This document shows positions 8,802 to 28,983 of a stretch of 64,000 bases of DNA, one piece after another. The stretch comes from Cercospora beticola (taxonomy: Eukaryota > Ascomycota > Dothideomycetes > Mycosphaerellales > Mycosphaerellaceae), in the NCBI RefSeq assembly GCF_033473495.1, contig NC_088938.1:124001-188000 (forward strand), read 5' to 3'. The translations under genes were made by a program, and so were the position numbers. The notes under the pieces were generated by a model. That model saw only the letters and a list, made by a program, of their open reading frames with translations. It was not told the DNA's origin and searched no databases. Numbering within the stretch: position 1 is the stretch's first letter; every line of letters begins with the position of its first letter.

Positions 8802-11800
8802 TTAAGCCATCAACGGCAGGAACCCAGGATGCGTCAGAATCAACGGCGCACACTGTGTAACCTCGGCACCAGTGACCAGCCATTGCACATCGGGTGATTT
8901 CAACATTGCTGTGCCAGCCTCGTGCGTCCGCACCAGGAAGACCTTGGCTGCAGTATACGCAGGGGAATTGCACCACACCAGGCCATAGGTCAGGTCGGTT
9001 GCCTCAGGACCCCACTTGCTTCCTCTGATCGTGTAAATGTTTCGCTCACCAGGAACAATCATGGCGAAGTTCTGGCCTCGTGTGCCGCTTTCAACATCCA
9101 CAAGGCGGAAACGAGAAACTCCGTATGCAGCCATGCTGTCGGGATGCCCTGTTCTTATTGTCAGCTATCGTGAGAAACATATGGCGCAATAGAGTCGTGA
9201 CTTACACGCCAGGAACTTTCCTTTGGCCCCGTAGGTCACATTCGAGGACATGTCGAACACGGTATCGGGATTCGAAGCGGAACCGAGGTAGATGCTGCCA
9301 TCGTCGCCAGCCACAAGGTATGCTGCGTTAGTCACATCCGAGATGCGAACTTGGCCAGCCTTCAAGGGCACAGAGTCTTTTACGGGTTGACCCTGAAGGA
9401 GCGTCGGCACTGGTGGCAGCTCATAGATCGGGTTCTCGACGGGCTCGACGGATCGAGTCGAACTCTCCTCAGGATCAGCGGGCTCGATCGGCGTTGGTTC
9501 CTCTTCCTCTGGAATCTCATTTCCAAGACATCCTTCTGCAAGCTTAGGACCTTCAAATTCTCCAAGGGCATACGACTTCTCGAAAACGCTAAGCTCGAAG
9601 TCGACGCCAAGACCGAGTTCCCAGTCGATACCATCACACTTGTCCTCATCCTTTGCCATGGGCGTGTTCCAGTGGGCTTTGGCGCCGAGATTCGGCCTGG
9701 AAACCACCGCAATACCCTGCGTCCACAGGCCGTTAAGCACGTCGATACCAATGCCGACACTAATGGGAAGGCCGATTGATGCCGAGAGTTCGAGCTCGCC
9801 CACTGCTTCAAACGTCGTGGTCACGGTGGGCTTGAAGCCTGAAAGTCCAGTTCTACTCGTGTCGATTACGTCCAACACCACGCTCATTTCTGGAAATTCC
9901 AGTTTCGCACCCGCAAGGACCCTACCCAGGGCTTTCACCCCAGCTTTGCCATCGACGCTTAAAGTGATCATTGGTCCAAGCGTGATGATACCAGGAATCG
10001 AAAGGCCCGGTAGCCCTGCAGAGTAGAGCTGTTTCTTGAGAAATTCGAACTCCTTTTCGACCATAGCTTCGATGCCAAGATGGACGCCCACGCCGATGTT
10101 ACCATGCAGTTCAACTGCCAGAGAGGTGGGTCCTTCAAGAAGAGAGATACTCGCAGTCCCTGCGACGCTCAACGAGCCAGTCACGCCGCAATCCACGCAC
10201 CAGACATTTACTCGTGGCTTCGGATCCTGGATAGCGTACTTTTCGGCAATAGCCTTTGCCTTGGAGCTTGCCGCAGAGAATACCGCCGTACCCACCTCTT
10301 CTTCCTTGAGTTCCAACGCATATAGAGGGATGCTGTTCCCTTCTCCAAAAGAGGAATCGACCTTGAAAGGGTTCATGTCGAATGGTATCGTAAATCCAAT
10401 AGAGGGTCTGATGGTCGTGAAGGTATCCACCACCATTTTTATCGTTTCAATCGCGCTGTTGACAAGCCGTTCCAAATTATTAAAGAAATTAGCCATATTC
10501 TTGGCGGCTGCCGCAAGACCCATCGCGCCGGCAAATCCATCGATGATCATCGAAATCGGCCAGCCCTCTTCGAAGCCGATGATGCCCATTTTCTCCCGCA
10601 ACCCGGTCACGTTTCCCGCTATGCCGGGCTCATACTTGTGAAAGCCGTATGCCATGTCCAGCTCGTTGTCGAAGGTCGGCCCGCATGGAATGAAGGGGCT
10701 GTTGAGCACGGTTTGCGAGAAGTCGTAGGTGCTGGAATATTTGCCACCCTCTCCTTCTCTGCCATTCGCGTTCAACGGGAATGTCGAGGGCTTTCGCCCA
10801 CATGCTGCAGTTGGATCGTTGCTCGCTCGTGTGTTCGTATTCGATGGTGCCTGGGGCGCAGTGCGATCCGGCGGTGGGCGGCACTCGTTGAGGTCCATGA
10901 GAGAAAAGTTGTCCAGCAAGAAGTCCACGGATTCGGAGTGATCATAACCTTTGCCGCATTGGAATTCAACTTCCTGCCGGAGTAGTACACTGGTCAGCAG
11001 ACATTCCGCACAAAGGCACATGGTTGAAGTCCACTCACTAGGCGAGCTCTCTCGAAACCTGGCACCCTCTGCACAGTTGCCTCCCACAGGTTCTACTGTC
11101 CTGCCTGTTGCGGGGTCGTGAAAGTCATTGTCGTACCGGCCTGTGTAAGCTCCAGGCCGTTCGTGTTGAAGTACACTCTGAGGAGGCACCCTTTCGGCGC
11201 CCAAGTCTGATGAGTTCCGAACGCCCAGTAAAATCTGAGACGGTATTCTCTATTAGGTTGCGTGCCGAAAAGCACTAGTCCTGGATTTTGATAGATAAGT
11301 GTTGCCGGGTCCTTGTAGCTACGCATTTCCGTTAGCACTGATTGATGTAGCTTGTGTTGACGAGTCCGGGAGAGATAAAGATGATGACTTACAAGAAGGC
11401 TGTTCCGTCCTGAGCGGAATACACCGAGTTGCTCTCTACACGCGCGAAGCCAGAATCGGACCATTGATATCGTCCCATCGAGGCGATTGGCTCTTCAAAA
11501 CTAGGATTTTGTAGTATATTGACGCTTGGCTCGGGGCAGGCGGGTTGCGTGGAAGTCGGTGTGCCGGCTGCTGGTGTTACGGTTACACAAGTCTCCCTGG
11601 GTCCTTGTGTGAGCGAAAAATCATCCAGCAATAAGTCAACCTTGGTCAGTCCTGGTTGCGTACAGTTCACCTGGAAGTCCTAGACATAGAGTTTAGTGAG
11701 ATTCAAACAGAATAGTGCAGCCATCACAGACGTACGAGTTGGCTTGGGTATTTGAAATTCGAGGAAAACTTGTCCGTTCTCACAACTCTTTCCACTCGAA

Positions 11801-19334: not shown

Positions 19335-21344
19335 CTACAACCCCCTCCACGCCACCTTCGCAACATGATCCACCCTCTTCCTCGTACTCTTCACAAAACC
19401 CAAATACCTCAAATCCGCCAACGAACGCTGAAACAACGCCATAGTCTTCTCCTCACTTCCCTCTCCATCCTCATCATCCCCAATAACCGCCTGGAAAGCC
19501 TTCCACAAATCATGCACATTAATCAAACTCCCCGACTCCAAATAAAGCTGATACAAAATCGCCGTAGCAGGCTGCGTACCCGACAACGTCGCCTCCTCAT
19601 TCGTGCCCGGATCACAACACTCACAATCCAGATAATCATGCGGAGCAGCAAGAGCACGTTCCACAGCGTGACGGGGTCGAGGCATAAAAACTTCTCTGTA
19701 AGGTGTTCGGGAATCGTAGACGAAGATTTCATTGAGAGGGAGTTCTTTTACGCCGATGAGGTGTTGGGAGAAGTAGGTTTCGAGGAGAGTTGAGAGGCGG
19801 CGGACGAGGGCTGTGTAGGCTGCGTCTTGTTTGGAGAGGGTGGATTTTTGTTTGCTGAGTTCGACTTTTTGGGCGACGACTGTGGTTCGGAGGGTGGAAT
19901 TTTTGATGTCGTCTTCGCTGCGGAGGGGTTTGGTGGAGGTTTGGTGGTCTTTTGTGAGGGATTTGAGTTCCTTTTCGATTGTGTGGAGTTCTGTTTCGGC
20001 TCTGGGAGATAGGCTGATGGAGTGGAATTGTTCGATGACTTGGAGGGCTACGTCGGAAGGCGATTTGCGGAGGATTAAGAGGAGTGATCTGATCAGGGTC
20101 GAGTCGGTGAGCTTGCCAGACATGGCTTGGATGTAGAGGCTTGGCTTCGAGGAGACTTGAGTGGACGGCAGGCATGCTTGAATCTTTCTGATTGCTTCCG
20201 TTGCTGCCATCGTGCCTGCAAGCGATTGTCGCCCAGCTGCAACGCTCTTTTTCGCAAAATCGAAAAGCGCTTGATCTGAGTCGAGAAGCTCTCGCACTTG
20301 CTCCGTCTCTCCATCATCGAGCAATTGTCTCGCATAGTCACGCAAAGTTGGCAAATTGCGCAAAGCCTCAAAATGATCTTTCGGAACGTCTCTGAACGTA
20401 ATGTTCGGGTCCAGCAGCAGGCTCGTCGCATTGGCATAGTGGTGTGACATGTAAGCATACCGCGTAGCCTGTACCAGACTATCTATGCCTTGGATATAGT
20501 CGCTTTGTCGTTCCAGGATCATTGACGCCAAATTTGGACCCAGCCAGAGCTCCGATTCTGGGCTTGTGAGCACCTCGAAAACCTGCTCGACTTCGTCTGT
20601 CGACACTGCTGCATCGAACAGCTTGCCATCGAGAGATCTGATGGCGGCAGACGATAGCCTTTGCTGCAGGAACTCCACTGATGTTGCCACGTTTAGCAGA
20701 AACGCAAAAGGAATGCGATCCTGCCAGCATGCCAGAATTTCAATGAGTTCAGACAGCAGGTCGCGATCAAAGGCTTCCGTGTCTTCAAAGGCAATTACAA
20801 CTTGCTGGAGTTTTCGTTCCTGCACGTAGTCGTACAGTATCTGCAAGTCGTAGTTCAGTCGCTTGGGACCTTTGCGAGATGTGGTTGTCTCTTCCAGTTC
20901 GTCGGCATCATCATCAGTAGATGTAGTTGAGGTGGCCTTCTGGTTGATTATCTTGAGTAGCGCTTTCAAGTTTGAGCCAGATCCTGATGACAGTGATACG
21001 AAGCACCTTTTGGCCGCTGAATTTGTGCTCAGGCTGGAAAGCTGAGAGGCGATAGAGTTGCGCAGAGCAGAATTTGGGCCGGCGAGGATAAGACCTGTGG
21101 GAATGCGCGTACTACTCCCCGCTGCAGAAGACTCGCCCAGGAACTTCGCGATCTCGTTGACTGTTGATGCGTTGATGGTATCGAGTCTCTCGTTGATGCG
21201 CTGCTGTTGGGCGCCCCATGCCTGGTGATACGCTTTCTTTCTCAGATTCCAGGATGCTTGCAGGCCTTGAGGTTCTGTACGCCTTCTCTTGGCAGGTCTG
21301 TTGTCTTCTTCTGGCTCGAAGACATAGCACTTTTCGTATTCCAT
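19335..21344 (-). CDS. orc3: Origin recognition complex subunit 3
   Basis: Intronless, 669 aa from the ATG at 21344 (MEYEKCYVFEPEEDN). The N-terminal ATPase-like domain has the degenerate nucleotide site typical of ORC3: GLILAGPNSALRNSIASQL in place of a good Walker A. It continues with VVIAFEDTEAFDRDLLSELI and the characteristic IPFAFLLNVATSVEFLQQRL. The C-terminal winged-helix domain ends with ATAILYQLYLESGSLINVHD and LRYLGFVKSTRKRVDHVAK. ORC3 is part of the six-subunit complex that marks replication origins and loads MCM helicase. An insertion with Thr/Ser/Asp-rich low complexity lies near residue 155. The gene is tail-to-tail with the copper transporter, 137 bp away. Confidence 0.92.
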   Translation of the reverse strand: MEYEKCYVFEPEEDNRPAKRRRTEPQGLQASWNLRKKAYHQAWGAQQQRINERLDTINASTVNEIAKFLGESSAAGSSTRIPTGLILAGPNSALRNSIASQLSSLSTNSAAKRCFVSLSSGSGSNLKALLKIINQKATSTTSTDDDADELEETTTSRKGPKRLNYDLQILYDYVQERKLQQVVIAFEDTEAFDRDLLSELIEILACWQDRIPFAFLLNVATSVEFLQQRLSSAAIRSLDGKLFDAAVSTDEVEQVFEVLTSPESELWLGPNLASMILERQSDYIQGIDSLVQATRYAYMSHHYANATSLLLDPNITFRDVPKDHFEALRNLPTLRDYARQLLDDGETEQVRELLDSDQALFDFAKKSVAAGRQSLAGTMAATEAIRKIQACLPSTQVSSKPSLYIQAMSGKLTDSTLIRSLLLILRKSPSDVALQVIEQFHSISLSPRAETELHTIEKELKSLTKDHQTSTKPLRSEDDIKNSTLRTTVVAQKVELSKQKSTLSKQDAAYTALVRRLSTLLETYFSQHLIGVKELPLNEIFVYDSRTPYREVFMPRPRHAVERALAAPHDYLDCECCDPGTNEEATLSGTQPATAILYQLYLESGSLINVHDLWKAFQAVIGDDEDGEGSEEKTMALFQRSLADLRYLGFVKSTRKRVDHVAKVAWRGL

Positions 21345-21514
21345 GATCGCATGGACAGGAAATGATGTGGAGCGTGAAGACAGGAAGTTGAGGAACGCGT
21401 TCAGAGACGCGCTTTGACGAGTTGTGATTGGTCGGCTGTGGCTGCATAAAGTTGTGCATTGCACAACTGCTCATTTCGTCTATCTACTTGGGATCGCCTC
21501 CTTCGAAGCGTATA

Positions 21515-22444
21515 CTAGCCATGCTCATCCTCTGTAAGGCCTGGACAATCCTCACTCAATGCCTCCTCACTGGCATAGCGGTATTTGCACCAGAAACAGT
21601 AGTGGTACTTCTCACGAAGAAACGACAGTATCTTCTCCAGCCTGTCTTCCACAGGCAGGGCTTCAAACTCATCCAGCTCTGGATCTTCTTCTTCCAAGTC
21701 TTCTTCCACCTCATTGCCATACGCCAAGTCTTCATCGTCATCAGCAGTCGTGTAGTCTTTGTGCCGTGACAGACTCTGGTCCAGATCATAGCGCATACGC
21801 CGCTCCCTCTCCTTCTCAAGCCTCTGCTTGACAAGAGGTCGCCATAACAGATTCACAGATCGTAGCGGTAACTCCTTCTTCGATGACTTCTCCAACGTCG
21901 ACTGAGTATCACGTGGCGCAGATCCATCTGCCACAGCCTCCCCATCCTCCGTCTCAAACCCCTCCAGCGTCCTCATCGCAGACCACATCTGCCCCTCAAA
22001 CCTCTTCTGCTCAACCTCCGCCCGATTCCTCTCTCGATACTCCTCCGCAGTAAGCTTAACCTTCTTCTCCTTAACATCCATCGCCTCCGCCGCCTCCCGA
22101 ATTTTCCTCTTCCGATCATTCTCCATTCCAATGCCACCTCGGTCCTCTTTAATCTGAACCTCAATCGGTCGCGTCCTTGCACCTTCAGTTTTGCCAAGCG
22201 CGCCACCTTTAAACCCCATTTTTGCCATCATTTTGGCACCTTTGTTGGAACTGTCGAGTTCTGTGGCGAGAGCTGTTTCGAGTTTTTGACGTTCTTCTTC
22301 CGCTCGTTCGGCTTTGGATTTTACTTTTCCGCGTTCGAGGGCTTCTTTTTTGAGGCGGGCTGTTCTTTGTAGGGAAGTTTCCTTTTTGGCTGGGGTTTCT
22401 TCGAAGGTCATGTTGAGGTAGTCATCTTCTTCGTCGTCGGCCAT
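21515..22444 (-). CDS. GPATCH11-like G-patch protein with C-terminal DUF4187
   Basis: Intronless, 309 aa. After an acidic, Lys/Glu-rich N-terminus comes a G-patch at about residues 68-105 (KMMAKMGFKGGALGKTEGA, then RGGIGMEN). Charged helices follow, with LRSVNLLWRPLVKQRLEKE and an acidic tract. The end carries the DUF4187 Cys motif: YHYCFWCKYRYASEEALSEDCPG, a CxxC plus a distal Cys. This order matches the conserved eukaryotic GPATCH11 (CCDC75) family. G-patch proteins usually activate DEAH helicases in pre-mRNA splicing or ribosome assembly, so a nuclear RNA-processing role is expected. The gene is 170 bp downstream of the ORC3 start on the same strand. Confidence 0.9.
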   Translation of the reverse strand: MADDEEDDYLNMTFEETPAKKETSLQRTARLKKEALERGKVKSKAERAEEERQKLETALATELDSSNKGAKMMAKMGFKGGALGKTEGARTRPIEVQIKEDRGGIGMENDRKRKIREAAEAMDVKEKKVKLTAEEYRERNRAEVEQKRFEGQMWSAMRTLEGFETEDGEAVADGSAPRDTQSTLEKSSKKELPLRSVNLLWRPLVKQRLEKERERRMRYDLDQSLSRHKDYTTADDDEDLAYGNEVEEDLEEEDPELDEFEALPVEDRLEKILSFLREKYHYCFWCKYRYASEEALSEDCPGLTEDEHG

Positions 22445-23212: not shown

Positions 23213-23960
23213 ATGGCTCCAAAGATCGCCATTCTCTTCGTAAGTGCTCGACAGCACCCCACCTTCAACCACTTCTGCGAAAGCATGAGCTGACCATGAA
23301 TGTCTAACAATAGTACTCCATGTACGGCCATGTCACTAAGCTGGCTGAGGCTGAGGCCGAGGGCATCAAGGCTGCTGGCGGCCAGGTCGACATTTACCAA
23401 GTCGAGGAGACTCTCTCCGAGGAGGTCCTGAGCAAGATGCACGCACCTGCAAAGGCCAGCTACCCAACCCTCACCGACCCAAAGCAGCTCGAGCAATACG
23501 ACGCTTTCCTCTTCGGTATCCCAACCCGATACGGTAACTTCCCAGCACAATGGAAGGCTTTCTGGGACCGCACTGGAGGCCAATGGCAGACTGGTGCTTT
23601 CTGGGGCAAGGTGAGCGATATTCTCGAACGAGTCAGTCGCGAGTATGATCATACTAACACATCTCACAGTACGCCGGTCTCTTCATCTCCACTGGCACTC
23701 TCGGCGGAGGTCAAGAATCCACCGCCATCGCCGCCATGAGCACCCTCGCCCACCACGGCTTCATCTACGTTCCACTGGGCTACAAGACCACCTTCGCCCT
23801 CCTCGCCGACCTTTCCGAAGTCCGCGGTGGCTCCGCCTGGGGTGCCGGAACCTTCTCTGGCGCTGACGGCTCTCGCCAGCCTTCAGCCAAGGAGATCGAG
23901 CTCGCTCAAGCTCACGGAAAGCAATTCTACGAGGCCGTGGCTCGCGTCAACTTCGCGTGA
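23213..23960 (+). CDS. pst2: NAD(P)H:quinone oxidoreductase, flavodoxin-like (Pst2/WrbA/Alt a 7 type)
   Basis: Model: exons 23213-23239, 23314-23610 and 23670-23960, giving 204 aa, the usual length for this family. FMN phosphate-binding loop YSMYGHVTKLAEAEAEGI follows the first splice. The conserved GIPTRYGNFPAQWKAFWDRT, GLFISTGTLGGGQESTAI and HHGFIYVPLGYK blocks are intact, as is GSAWGAGTFSGADGSRQPS. The family makes tetrameric FMN enzymes that reduce quinones by two electrons and protect membranes from oxidative damage; in yeast some sit in eisosomes. The same fold is known as the minor allergens Alt a 7 and Cla h 7. The stop codon TGA at 23958-23960 is followed by CTAG and by a long open extension (separate entry). 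Confidence 0.95.
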
Positions 23961-24182
23961 CTAGATGGCGGTGCTGCGGGGAAGCAGGAGAATAGCACAG
24001 CGGGTCAGAATGGGACGACCACTGCTGCTGCAGGGAATGGCAATTTGAAGTCAGAAGGACAAGCATCACAACAGCAAACACAATCACAACAGAAGCAGAC
24101 AGGTTCATCTTCTGCGCCGCAAGAGAAGGATGATGACAGCAAGGGACCTTGTGGTCTTCCGTTCAAATGCACTGTTGCTTAG
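23958..24182 (+). other. Possible stop-codon readthrough extension of the quinone reductase
   Basis: The TGA stop is followed by CTA-G, the best-known readthrough context. After it the same frame stays open for 73 codons to a TAG at 24180-24182. The extension is Gln/Ser/Gly-rich with few large hydrophobics (QQQTQSQQKQTGSSSAP). It ends in GPCGLPFKCTVA, a C-terminal C-a-a-X-like box with a second nearby Cys, suited to farnesylation plus palmitoylation. Read through, the product would be 278 aa with a membrane anchor. Alternatives are a nonsense mutation that recently truncated a long isoform, or a sequencing error. I saw no workable intron that removes the stop. Confidence 0.6.
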
Positions 24183-24456: not shown

Positions 24457-26595
24457 TCACTCCATATCCATATCCTCATCCTCATAAATCTCCTCCTCCT
24501 CCCTCTCATCAAACTCCTCCCGCCTCTCAAACCTCCCAAACGGTGCTTGCACCTGCTGTATTGCCCCCATCCCACTCCCTCCCATCCCACCACCCAACCC
24601 ACTCTCATGCCCCAAACTCGGCTTCTCCGGCAAACCCCTCAACAACTTCCCCGTCGCACCCAACATCTCCAACGCCCTCTCAATCCACCCCGCTTTCCTC
24701 CTACTAACCGTCAACGTCCAACGAAACTCATTCAATCTACAAGCATAAAAATGGCTTTCCTCTTTTCCTGGTGAAGTCGTTTGTAATAAAGCGCCGAAAG
24801 TCCCGATGAGAGCGAAATTTGAAGAGGAGGGGAAGTACCAGAATGCGTTCAAGTGTTCGGGTTTGAGGCGGTTGACGAAGTCCAAGGCGGAGATGAGGCG
24901 GGTTTTGGCGGCGGAGCGGCAGATGTAGAGGAGGTAGGGGTCGATTGTACTAGACTGTAGATTCTGAGTGGAGGGGGTTGTGGATGTGGCGCTGCTATCG
25001 AGGGATTGCACGATGCGGCGGTGGATACTGATTTCTGTTGCGAAGTAGGCGAGGTGGAGGTAGCCTTGCGGAGAAAGAGTTCCAGGTGTGAAACTGTCCA
25101 TTTTGCAAGATGCGGGCAGCTTAGCAATCCAGTCCTTCAATTTGAGTTGCACAGGTTTTGCGCGATTGAGGACGAGTTGTGTTGCGAAGCGACCTGCTTG
25201 GGCGAATTGCGCTTTGGCTGTTTCGCTGTAGAAGGTTTCGCAGACTTCGGCCATGATTGCTGTGAGGGAGATCATTTGCATGAAGACCATGCGGCCTTTG
25301 GTGGAGTAGGAGTCGACTTCTTCGGACGAGGTGTTGTTGGCGGAGTCGATGCTTTCGTCGAAGTCGTCTTCGGTGGGTTGCGGGACGTTCCAGTCGGATG
25401 CGTTGATGTGAGATGGACGACCGTAGATGACGGCGCTCCATTTGTCTTGCATGTATAAGGCCCATGCTAGTCGTTTGCGAAGTAATCGCTCCCAACGTGG
25501 TATTGACCAGTCGGAGCAGTCGAGGTGAAGGCCAATGTCCTGGCCGAGTGCGACGAGCTGGACTGTCAGTGTCCATGTGCTGGCTTTTGCACGTTGCAGC
25601 AGTAGAAGTCCTGCTTGTACTGCAGAGATCTTTGGTCTCTGCATTGCGATCGTCAAGCTGGCCATCGCGATGTATTCCAGTCTCGTGACATCTGGTTTAG
25701 GATGTGAAGCCAATGCCGGGTCATGTTCCCACCAAACGAGTGCCATCAAGTACATCGCAGCAAGTAAAGGTGGGTTGAAGTGCCTGTCACCATGTCGATG
25801 TCGATCGAGGAAGGCCTGCTTCTGAATGATCGGATAGCTGGGATGCACATTGCGGAAGTAGATGTCGATCAGAGCAGGGCCATGGCTGCCGACGACTTGC
25901 TCAATCTCTTTCAGAGCACGAGCTTCATCGTCAGGTATCGCAACACTGGCATCGTCATGTGTGCTAAAGTACTCAGTGCTCGTGACCTGACGAAGCGTGC
26001 CGAGCCGTGACTGGGTCTCGTTCTTGTCATTGAACGTTCCCAGCCCTATGAGAGAAGCATCCAATGGCGTCGTCTGGCCCAAGTACTTGCAGTGTCGATG
26101 TCTCTGCAAGCTCAATGACTCGTCCACTGCAAAAGGCTTCCTCATCGGGGGCTGACTGGACACCGGTAGTGAGATGGGTTCCGAATGAGGAACAGAGACG
26201 GCCCTGACAGCAGGAGGAACAGCGACTGCTTTACGCTGAGCGACAGGGCTACTCTTCTTCATGGGGCTGCTGCTATCGTTCTTCGATGCATCGTCCGGCG
26301 CTTTGCGCTTCCTGGGCTGTGCGTTCTCCACAAACGTGCATTCCTGTTTGTGGAACTCGCAGAGAACGCATTTGCGGTTCTCTTGCAGCACACACTTGGA
26401 CTTGCGGCGTCTACAGCCGTCGCAGGGTCGTTCTCTCTTGGGCTTGGCAGGTGGTGTGGTGCTTTGGACCTGCTTCAAAGCTGGGCGGTTTTCCTTGCCT
26501 TCCCCGGCGGTCTGTTGTTTGGGAGAGGACCAGGCGGCAATGGGGCGAGGAGAAGGTGGTGGGGCCATGGGGGCAATGGCGATCGCTGTAGCCAT
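24457..26595 (-). CDS. TamA/Dal81-like Zn2Cys6 nitrogen regulator
   Basis: Intronless, 712 aa from the ATG at 26595. The zinc cluster is near residues 55-85: RPCDGCRRRKSKCVLQENRK, then CVLCEFHKQEC and FVENAQPRKRK. The long spacing and PRKRK tail are typical of the TamA/Dal81 group. The middle homology domain follows, with FRNVHPSYPIIQKQAFL and the diagnostic WTLTVQLVALGQDIGLHLDC, WERLLRKRLAWALYMQDKW and YGRPSHINASDWNVP. Known members act as co-activators for pathway-specific nitrogen genes; in Aspergillus TamA the zinc cluster can be dispensable. The C-terminus is Glu-rich. Confidence in the subfamily is good, in the exact targets low. Confidence 0.88.
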   Translation of the reverse strand: MATAIAIAPMAPPPSPRPIAAWSSPKQQTAGEGKENRPALKQVQSTTPPAKPKRERPCDGCRRRKSKCVLQENRKCVLCEFHKQECTFVENAQPRKRKAPDDASKNDSSSPMKKSSPVAQRKAVAVPPAVRAVSVPHSEPISLPVSSQPPMRKPFAVDESLSLQRHRHCKYLGQTTPLDASLIGLGTFNDKNETQSRLGTLRQVTSTEYFSTHDDASVAIPDDEARALKEIEQVVGSHGPALIDIYFRNVHPSYPIIQKQAFLDRHRHGDRHFNPPLLAAMYLMALVWWEHDPALASHPKPDVTRLEYIAMASLTIAMQRPKISAVQAGLLLLQRAKASTWTLTVQLVALGQDIGLHLDCSDWSIPRWERLLRKRLAWALYMQDKWSAVIYGRPSHINASDWNVPQPTEDDFDESIDSANNTSSEEVDSYSTKGRMVFMQMISLTAIMAEVCETFYSETAKAQFAQAGRFATQLVLNRAKPVQLKLKDWIAKLPASCKMDSFTPGTLSPQGYLHLAYFATEISIHRRIVQSLDSSATSTTPSTQNLQSSTIDPYLLYICRSAAKTRLISALDFVNRLKPEHLNAFWYFPSSSNFALIGTFGALLQTTSPGKEESHFYACRLNEFRWTLTVSRRKAGWIERALEMLGATGKLLRGLPEKPSLGHESGLGGGMGGSGMGAIQQVQAPFGRFERREEFDEREEEEIYEDEDMDME

Positions 26596-28983
26596 GTCCG
26601 CTCGAGTGGCGAAGGGCTTTGACGTAGTGTGCTGATAGGTGAATATGTAGATAGGCACGACAGGCCGCGCTTGGCTATTGTCAGCAGGACGATCCAGCTG
26701 TTGCACGGCGCGATATGCAGGAGCCAGGTGTCAGTTATCTCCAGATCCAGTGCGGCGAAGAGATGATCGCTTATCAGTAGTGACCAGTGTCGCCAGGAAT
26801 AATATGGAGGAGCGCAGTCCGTTCGAACCCGGGGATAATGGCCAGTCCAAGCAGCACTAGTTAGGCGTGTTCAGCAGGACCGCACAGGGCGGCGAGAAAG
26901 ATGAGATGATCGAGCGTCTTTGGGGTCATTGGGATGGAAGAAATGCCTCGTCAAAGACTGCAGATCGCTGCCTCGACGCTGGCAACAACCACGAAAAGAC
27001 GCAACAAAACAATTCAGTAAAATGCCTCAGCACCGGGCCAGAAAGAAACGCAGCCGGAGAGCACGCGAGCGCTGTGCGCGGGCGAGATAATAACTCTGCG
27101 CAGTCTGACCCCAAGACCTACCACAATTTACAATCTGACGTGCCTTGACCGGCAGCGATCTTTGAGATGCTGAACACAAGCGCAAACTTCCATGGAATGT
27201 GTTGCGTAAAATCAGCTTTCCATTAAGTAAAGAGAAAGTCGAAAAGAGGTACACGAGGAAGGGTCAAGAGATAAGAGCCACGAAAGGACCAATGAAAAAG
27301 GACTGCCGTCGAAAAGAGTTTAGTGGCAGCTCGAAATTGAGCCCAGCGACAAGGTGCCGCGACTCTGCGACTGTGGAGGATCTGACCTCACACTCTCTGT
27401 CACATGTCCACCCTTTGAGCTGCAGAAACGACCATTTTTTGCCTTTTATCACATGCTGTTCCCGCCGGAATGGAGTTGTCTGGAGTCATCGACTCGTGAC
27501 CGCTGGTTCTCCATCTTCATCTCCACACGACACGTCTCCAACTGTAATTTTCTTCACGGCAGAAAAACGGCCGGGATGACCTGGGGATGATGACACCCGC
27601 AGACCCTGAGGATCTTGTCTGAAGTGTTGAATGTCAACCCAGAACACCCGACCCGAGACAGACGACAGGTCAATTGCTGTATTTCGGATACAAAAACTAG
27701 GAACAACCCACTCGACTTGGCAGGAACTGCTGATCTCATACTGGGGTACTAGCGACGCGGCCGCTCTCACTGAAACCTCGTGGCTGACATGGAGTTGGCC
27801 GGGAATAATCCAAATGCTTCTCGGCATTTACAGTTTGGTGAGCTTGTCAGACAGCGGTCTGCTTTTCATCAATCCAGAATCTATATGCGAAGACATATCA
27901 GTATGCTCGGAAGAACACCTATTCCACTCCTGCTTTCCTCGAAGTGACGTTCAAGCGCATCCCAGCATGATGGCGCAATCATTCGGTCTCGCGGTCCTAA
28001 GCTAGTCGCTCTATACACACCGCCTCGCCAGTAGCTCCGACCGCAGTATAGGCAACACGATAAGCACTGAAGCAGAAAGCCAAGTCCGAGTAGACGCCGA
28101 ACGGAGCAATCGAGGCAGTGTTACATTTGTACGGAAAATCCGTTCGGCCTCTGTGTTGAGCTCGTCAGCCTGCAATGCGCTCGAGACAGCAACCTACCAT
28201 AAGAAGATGTGCGAGGTATTAGTATGTTTGAATGAGCATCGCTTCACAGCCGCGCTGTTCAAGGCAACCAAGAATTGTCCGAGTCCTGTGAAAGGGTCAA
28301 GCCATGTAATCACATCGACAGCCAGTATCCATTTTGCACGCGAATTGTGCCGAGCGAAGACAAAACGTACCAACTGAAAGGGAAGAAAATACGAAAAAGT
28401 CGGACTTGGCAACGTGGCGAGAGTGCAATATCTCTTTGTTGTATAAACGTTCTGCCTCGCGTCCCATTCCGTCTCCAATACTGCATTAATCTGTGTCTTC
28501 GCCATTGACTGATGTTTGTCATGTCCCACAATCGACATGAATACCATTGAAGAATGCAAGCGCAAGAGGCCTGCTGTTCGCTGCCTTCGACGTTCACCGG
28601 GTCTCAATGAAGCAACTTCTCTGGCCTGCATATGAAAATTTAGATCCCTGTACCTTGCCGCAAATGCCACTCCAGACCTTTGTCGCTCGATGCCCGTTAA
28701 GCAACGTTCTCATGGCTGGGACTGCTAATTGCAGTACGAAGCAGACCCGATGCCTTCCCCATCAGGCATCGCGAGGATGCAACTTCCAAGACACGCTGCT
28801 CTTCCCTCGATGATCAGCATTTATTCTCGCCTCCGGTATTGATCCTTGTCGTTGCAGATGTAATGTACAAAATCTGCCAGGCCACTCCCCTGCTCATTGT
28901 CAACAAAGATGGGCTCTGCGGAACGCGCAGACGAAGTCGCAATTCAGCTGGTCCTACATCTCCGGTCCACATCATCAAGAGTA
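26596..28983. other. 2.4-kb gap without a convincing gene
   Basis: Upstream of the TamA-like gene and downstream of the NLR. A 124-codon ATG frame at 27631-28005 (+) and one at 28194-28670 (-) have no recognisable domain or intron pattern. I do not call a gene. TTTA and GAAA-rich stretches are common. Confidence 0.4.

Follow-up and report, generated by a model that had tools for sequence, protein, structure and literature searches.

A conserved CaaX-ending extension behind a stop codon in a high-readthrough context suggests a lipid-anchored isoform of a Cercospora beticola quinone reductase

We found that the frame of a Cercospora beticola quinone reductase gene continues beyond its stop codon into an extension whose lipidation-type end is shared with many other filamentous ascomycetes. 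The reading that we favor, with a probability of roughly 77%, is that one gene and one mRNA would give rise to two isoforms through readthrough at the UGA; we infer the readthrough itself from the sequence of the stop region and from its relatives. The gene combines a stop codon in a high-readthrough context with an extension that is conserved at the protein level beyond a conserved stop, and it shares with Ycp4-like proteins a C-terminal extension with a CaaX end.

The gene is located on the forward strand of the window, which is the whole 64-kb stretch of DNA that was analyzed, in a genome of 36 Mb distributed over 10 contigs. It consists of three exons (Table 1) and encodes a core protein of 204 amino acids that ends in EAVARVNFA. 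This core is 100% identical to the database entry P0002 ('Minor allergen Cla h 7 [Cercospora beticola]') and shares 98% and 96% identity with the entries from C. kikuchii and C. zeae-maydis, respectively. Against the family model TIGR01755 (NAD(P)H:quinone oxidoreductase type IV) it scored 200 bits, which is above the curated cut-off of 132.5. As judged from its sequence, the gene product is a member of the WrbA / NAD(P)H:quinone oxidoreductase type IV family, with a predicted FMN-dependent quinone reductase activity, and the nearest solved structure by sequence was that of Saccharomyces cerevisiae Pst2 (5mp4, 1.6e-79). A second quinone reductase copy is present on contig C6 (2942262-2942944, minus strand; locus L008), with 82% identity over residues 108-203 and 63% over residues 4-117. 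This paralogue ends in VNFE TAG CTC and is without such a tail. The neighboring genes all lie on the opposite strand, namely an ORC subunit 3-like gene and a G-patch/DUF4187 gene at 19335-22444 (-) and, downstream, a gene for a fungal-specific transcription factor at 24457-26706 (-).

Table 1. Features of the quinone reductase gene and its in-frame extension (positions within the window).
Feature	Position	Strand	Basis
Exon 1 (MAPKIAILF)	23213..23239	+	Sequence; protein identical to P0002
Intron 1 (GTAAGT...CTAAC...TAG)	23240..23313	+	Sequence, splice-site inspection
Exon 2	23314..23610	+	Translation; protein P0002
Intron 2 (GTGAGC...CTAAC...CAG)	23611..23669	+	Sequence, splice-site inspection
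Exon 3, coding part, ending in VNFA TGA	23670..23960	+	Translation
TGA CTA G, stop in the published high-readthrough context UGA CUA (G)	23958..23964	+	Sequence; PMC4207609, PMC4359377, PMC12233894
CTA GAT GGC, L-D-G codons after the stop	23961..23969	+	Sequence; alignment of relatives
In-frame extension, 73 codons, Gln/Ser/Gly-rich linker and putative anchor	23961..24179	+	Translation
GPCGLPFKCTVA, conserved C-terminal motif, putative anchor	24144..24179	+	Translation, alignment of relatives
First Cys codon of the motif, candidate S-acylation site	24150-24152	+	Acylation inferred
CTVA, CaaX box, predicted lipidation site	24168..24179	+	Translation, relatives; lipidation inferred
TAG, stop of the extended frame	24180..24182	+	Translation

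The original prediction, which was made from the letters of the DNA, stated that the core reading frame ends in TGA followed by CTAG and that 73 in-frame sense codons come behind it, with a CaaX-like box and a second cysteine at their end. All of this is present at 23958-24182, with the TGA itself at 23958-23960 and CTVA closing the last 12 residues (GPCGLPFKCTVA). Eleven of the 73 extension codons specify glutamine, and the GC content at third codon positions, 0.716 in the core, drops to 0.419 in the tail. The claim that UGA CUA is a high-readthrough context is likewise in line with published work: UGA CUA (G) is described as leaky in Ustilago and human cells (PMC4207609) and as a high-readthrough context in PMC12233894, while readthrough of 0.61-2.29% is given for three genes carrying this motif in HeLa cells (PMC4359377). 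No RNA structure stood out in four stretches 3' of the stop (z-scores of -1.02, 0.06, -0.05 and 0.18), and the last 24 residues of the tail had no match among solved structures at E-values up to 10.

The conservation of the tail and its CaaX box, which the original prediction had named as a check, was borne out by many relatives. When we searched with the Cercospora core plus tail, with an X at the stop, the tail motif was present in 13 of the 120 matches listed of 5034. A profile of the last exon and tail built from eleven sequences, tails included, yielded 74 tailed proteins among the 120 matches listed of 7240, a proportion that is no estimate of prevalence because the profile contained tails and therefore favored tailed proteins. 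All but one of these 74 end in C-x-[I/V/M/L]-X, the exception being P0152, whose name is marked as partial. Among the 73, the final residue is L (33), Q (17), M (13), S (6) or, once each, A, T, V and I. The named sources of tailed proteins comprise Penicillium, Aspergillus, Alternaria, Pyrenophora, Teratosphaeria, Aureobasidium, Phyllosticta, Botrytis, Sclerotinia, Lachnellula, Colletotrichum, Fusarium, Podospora and Tricharina as well as the lichens Flavoplaca and Variospora, and we take them to span several classes of Pezizomycotina. The position of the stop itself is also widely common, given that 64 of the 97 tail-less forms below 210 amino acids that we examined end in VNFA. Outside this set of relatives, a protein scan of the collection viral_contigs returned no relative, and the DNA pattern for GPCGLP..KC occurred in one stretch of viral_contigs and ten of genome_contigs, of which 0/11 was a relative (a tblastn search of the core against these 11 stretches gave one weak match, E 0.91, locus L015).

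Eight of the 74 tailed relatives read directly across the stop, with a tryptophan in its place (P0042, P0121, P0122, P0124, P0130, P0158, P0175 and P0193). P0121 and P0122 were first found by a query that carried a W at the stop. In all eight the sequence after the stop is in the same frame as in Cercospora, an agreement that is partly a selection effect since these relatives were found as continuous frames. The tryptophan is followed by L in seven of the eight and by L-D-G in five, as in Cercospora, which fits a conservation of the bases directly 3' of the stop; beyond these bases the linker is not conserved in the alignment of relatives. Over the core end and the tail, the eight sequences and that of Cercospora are only 53-72% identical to one another, so that recent copying does not account for the W-L and the anchor motif that they have in common.

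A second tryptophan directly after the CaaX box was seen in three of the eight (P0042, P0124 and P0193, from jgi, lgn and ena sources) and in none of the others. Because this residue sits where the second stop would be expected, the simplest reading of the protein letters is that TGA was translated as Trp at both stops in these three records. One of them, P0193, reads W-I-H-G rather than W-L-D-G, and the CUA context may have been lost in some lineages. In P0042 the complete frame runs without interruption on a contig of 1349 bases, whereas the Cercospora gene has introns, which suggests that this contig represents a transcript. For P0175, which comes from a record of a named organism (Sarcosagium campestre), the tryptophan is for that reason probably encoded by a TGG sense codon, and this lineage may make the tail constitutively. 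The original prediction had held that a sense codon at this position in relatives would mean a plain nonsense mutation; such codons appear to be mostly absent, with P0175 as the probable exception.

The tail could also be supplied by alternative splicing, if a small intron spanning the TGA were removed in some transcripts. Both mechanisms are at work in fungi, as the peroxisomal form of PGK is described to arise by alternative splicing in Aspergillus nidulans and by readthrough in Ustilago (PMC3798809). The remaining 66 of the 74 tailed relatives skip the stop by means of a gap of varying position, presumably a modeled intron. According to a rough pattern match, 42 of these gaps start after V-x-K, where a common donor of the form GTN AAY is conceivable, 11 keep A-[H/F/N], six start upstream, five keep V-N or V-H and two keep V-S-F or I-N-F. 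The common start of these 42 gaps does speak for splicing in the species concerned, and some of the public gene models may be based on RNA data. Two of five close pairs of gap models agree with each other (Alternaria P0164/P0168 and Penicillium malachiteum P0125/P0138), but the other three disagree (Alternaria P0135/P0164, Colletotrichum tofieldiae P0154/P0160 and Lachnellula P0142/P0187). Moreover, six of the 66 gaps reach into the conserved helix at the C-terminus of the core, and P0126 from Halenospora varia is nearly identical over the stretch compared to P0124, which reads across the stop, save for 13 residues that P0126 lacks, leaving an 'intron' of 39 nt. In four models (P0164 and P0168 from Alternaria, P0183 from Wetmoreana and P0187 from Lachnellula cervina) the protein picks up again with D-D-G-K, D-G-S-K or D-G-P-K, which would fit the use of the TAG within TGA CTAG as an acceptor. 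We read many of the gaps across the stop as annotation devices, possibly reflecting a systematic error (P0135, P0164, P0126, P0142, P0187 and others). Splicing also leaves the conservation of L-D-G after the stop unexplained.

For Cercospora itself, we compared the GT donors at or near the stop with those of the true introns 1 and 2, which match the consensus at 6/6 and 5/6 bases, respectively, and both contain CTAAC. GTGGCT matches at four, GTCAAC at three and GTGACT (at 23957) at five of six bases, the last being equal to the donor of intron 2 (GTGAGC), and donor strength alone may thus leave room for splicing. However, introns starting at GTGACT would measure 39 or 183 nt, and none of the 185 in-frame candidate introns that would remove the TGA (43 of them with GT donors) contains a CTRAY branch site, although 35 carry the looser motif YTNAY. 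Since CTRAY is lacking from all 185 candidates, readthrough is the best-supported route to the tail in Cercospora, and we consider splicing an unlikely source of it.

Alternatively, the tail could once have been constitutive, with the TGA being a recent nonsense mutation or an assembly error in the Cercospora lineage. The probable Trp codon in the distant relative P0175 and the constitutive tail of Candida albicans Ycp4 (PMC4556627) would be compatible with such a history. On the other hand, residue 204 is the last one in each of the three Cercospora entries (P0002, P0003 and P0004), the same position is shared by the short forms ending in VNFA, and one would not expect the motif GPCGLPxKCxxX to persist in a dead tail, all of which makes a recent lesion very improbable.

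A-to-I RNA editing occurs in the sexual stages of some ascomycetes and could in principle convert UGA into UGG (Trp) in some of the mRNAs. This type of editing prefers a U before the edited A, while the base at this position is a G, and editing would give no reason for the UGA CUA G context to be kept; we regard it as an exceedingly improbable source of the long form. Insertion of selenocysteine at the UGA was rejected as well, as fungi are without the required machinery according to PMC4207609.

Finally, the open frame and its CaaX-like end might be nothing but chance sequence of a 3' UTR, which the original prediction had dismissed as a coincidence. The local part of that argument turned out to be modest because open runs of this length are common: within the window, counting both strands and any frame, at least 73 open codons follow 376 of 3960 stop triplets, and in a first-order Markov resampling of the extension stretch 10544 of 100000 sequences stayed open. 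The CaaX end fared better, as only two of the 376 runs end in such a box, namely the extension itself and a run at 8895 (+). In the latter, 91 open codons with CQLS at their end come after TGATTTC; this run is tied to no gene and is probably due to chance. What carries the case that the tail of the Cercospora gene is real is conservation and not openness: its last 12 residues agree with the end that is conserved in 74 relatives, and the chance reading is effectively refuted.

Under the readthrough model, most ribosomes would stop at the UGA and release a soluble, Pst2-like enzyme of 204 amino acids, whereas a minority, helped by the CUA G context, would insert an amino acid and add the 73 residues. 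The tail would serve as a flexible linker ending in GPCGLPFKCTVA. The genome has matches to the Pfam families of both protein prenyltransferase subunits, and these enzymes would be expected to attach a lipid to Cys275 (of 278), the cysteine of the CaaX box. Cys269, further upstream, might be palmitoylated, which would give a double anchor of the Ras type; we take the motif GPCGLPxKCxxX to resemble the doubly lipidated end of N-Ras. A small share of the product would carry the linker and the double-cysteine anchor, and this long isoform might reside at the plasma membrane, on its inner face, where it would reduce membrane quinones; yeast flavodoxin-like proteins have been proposed to have this location and function. 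The original prediction had pointed to lipid-modified yeast paralogues of this type, in agreement with the literature: C. albicans Ycp4 carries an extension of about 90 amino acids that ends in a CAAX box and is 'likely to be lipid modified' (PMC4556627), and yeast Ycp4 is listed beside Ras1 and Ras2 as a substrate of the palmitoyltransferase Erf2 (Table 4 of PMC5364179). In addition, yeast flavodoxin-like relatives are termed eisosome proteins in PMC5753163. One might speculate that the leaky stop acts as both sensor and actuator, such that filamentous ascomycetes would use one self-regulating gene in place of the yeast Pst2/Ycp4 pair, an idea that we hold to be doubtful and more improbable than not by a wide measure.

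If the readthrough model is true, readthrough-based dual localization would extend from peroxisomes to lipid anchoring, the case in point being a family of antioxidant enzymes and allergens from filamentous ascomycetes. Yeasts and molds would then have arrived at the same functional split along different routes, the former with separate genes and the latter with a leaky stop. It would also suggest that many public gene models of the quinone reductase family are incomplete, with the tail either missing or attached via a doubtful intron that jumps the stop. The minor allergens Alt a 7 and Cla h 7 belong to this protein family and are usually given as the short form of about 204 amino acids. Among the titles and abstract openings of the openly licensed PMC papers listed by our searches, we found no report of readthrough in this family, Alt a 7 included.

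That readthrough can add targeting signals is already known, as is one case, Drosophila Syx17, of an extension of this kind with a predicted prenylation signal (PMC3840789). What is probably new is the combination of a probably leaky stop with an extension that bears a CaaX box and is widely conserved, by which one gene would do the work of the yeast pair. The case resembles the readthrough-derived peroxisomal targeting signals (PTS1) of Ustilago and animals described in PMC4207609 in that a metabolic enzyme, a UGA CUA (G) stop, a targeting extension and dual localization from one mRNA come together. It differs in that a CaaX box of the prenylation type, accompanied by a second cysteine, would act as the signal and provide a membrane anchor in place of peroxisome import, and in that readthrough was measured in those systems, whereas for the Cercospora gene it is deduced. 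Yeast Ycp4, Pst2 and Rfs1 belong to the same enzyme family, and the CAAX-ending extension of C. albicans Ycp4 provides a direct parallel to the tail (PMC4556627, PMC5753163, PMC5364179); in yeasts, however, separate genes encode the tailed and untailed forms, while here a single gene would yield both. Syx17, with a predicted farnesyltransferase signal in its readthrough extension, parallels the proposed long form of the Cercospora product, but it is a single insect gene, whereas the signal described here occurs in an enzyme family and is common to many filamentous ascomycetes.
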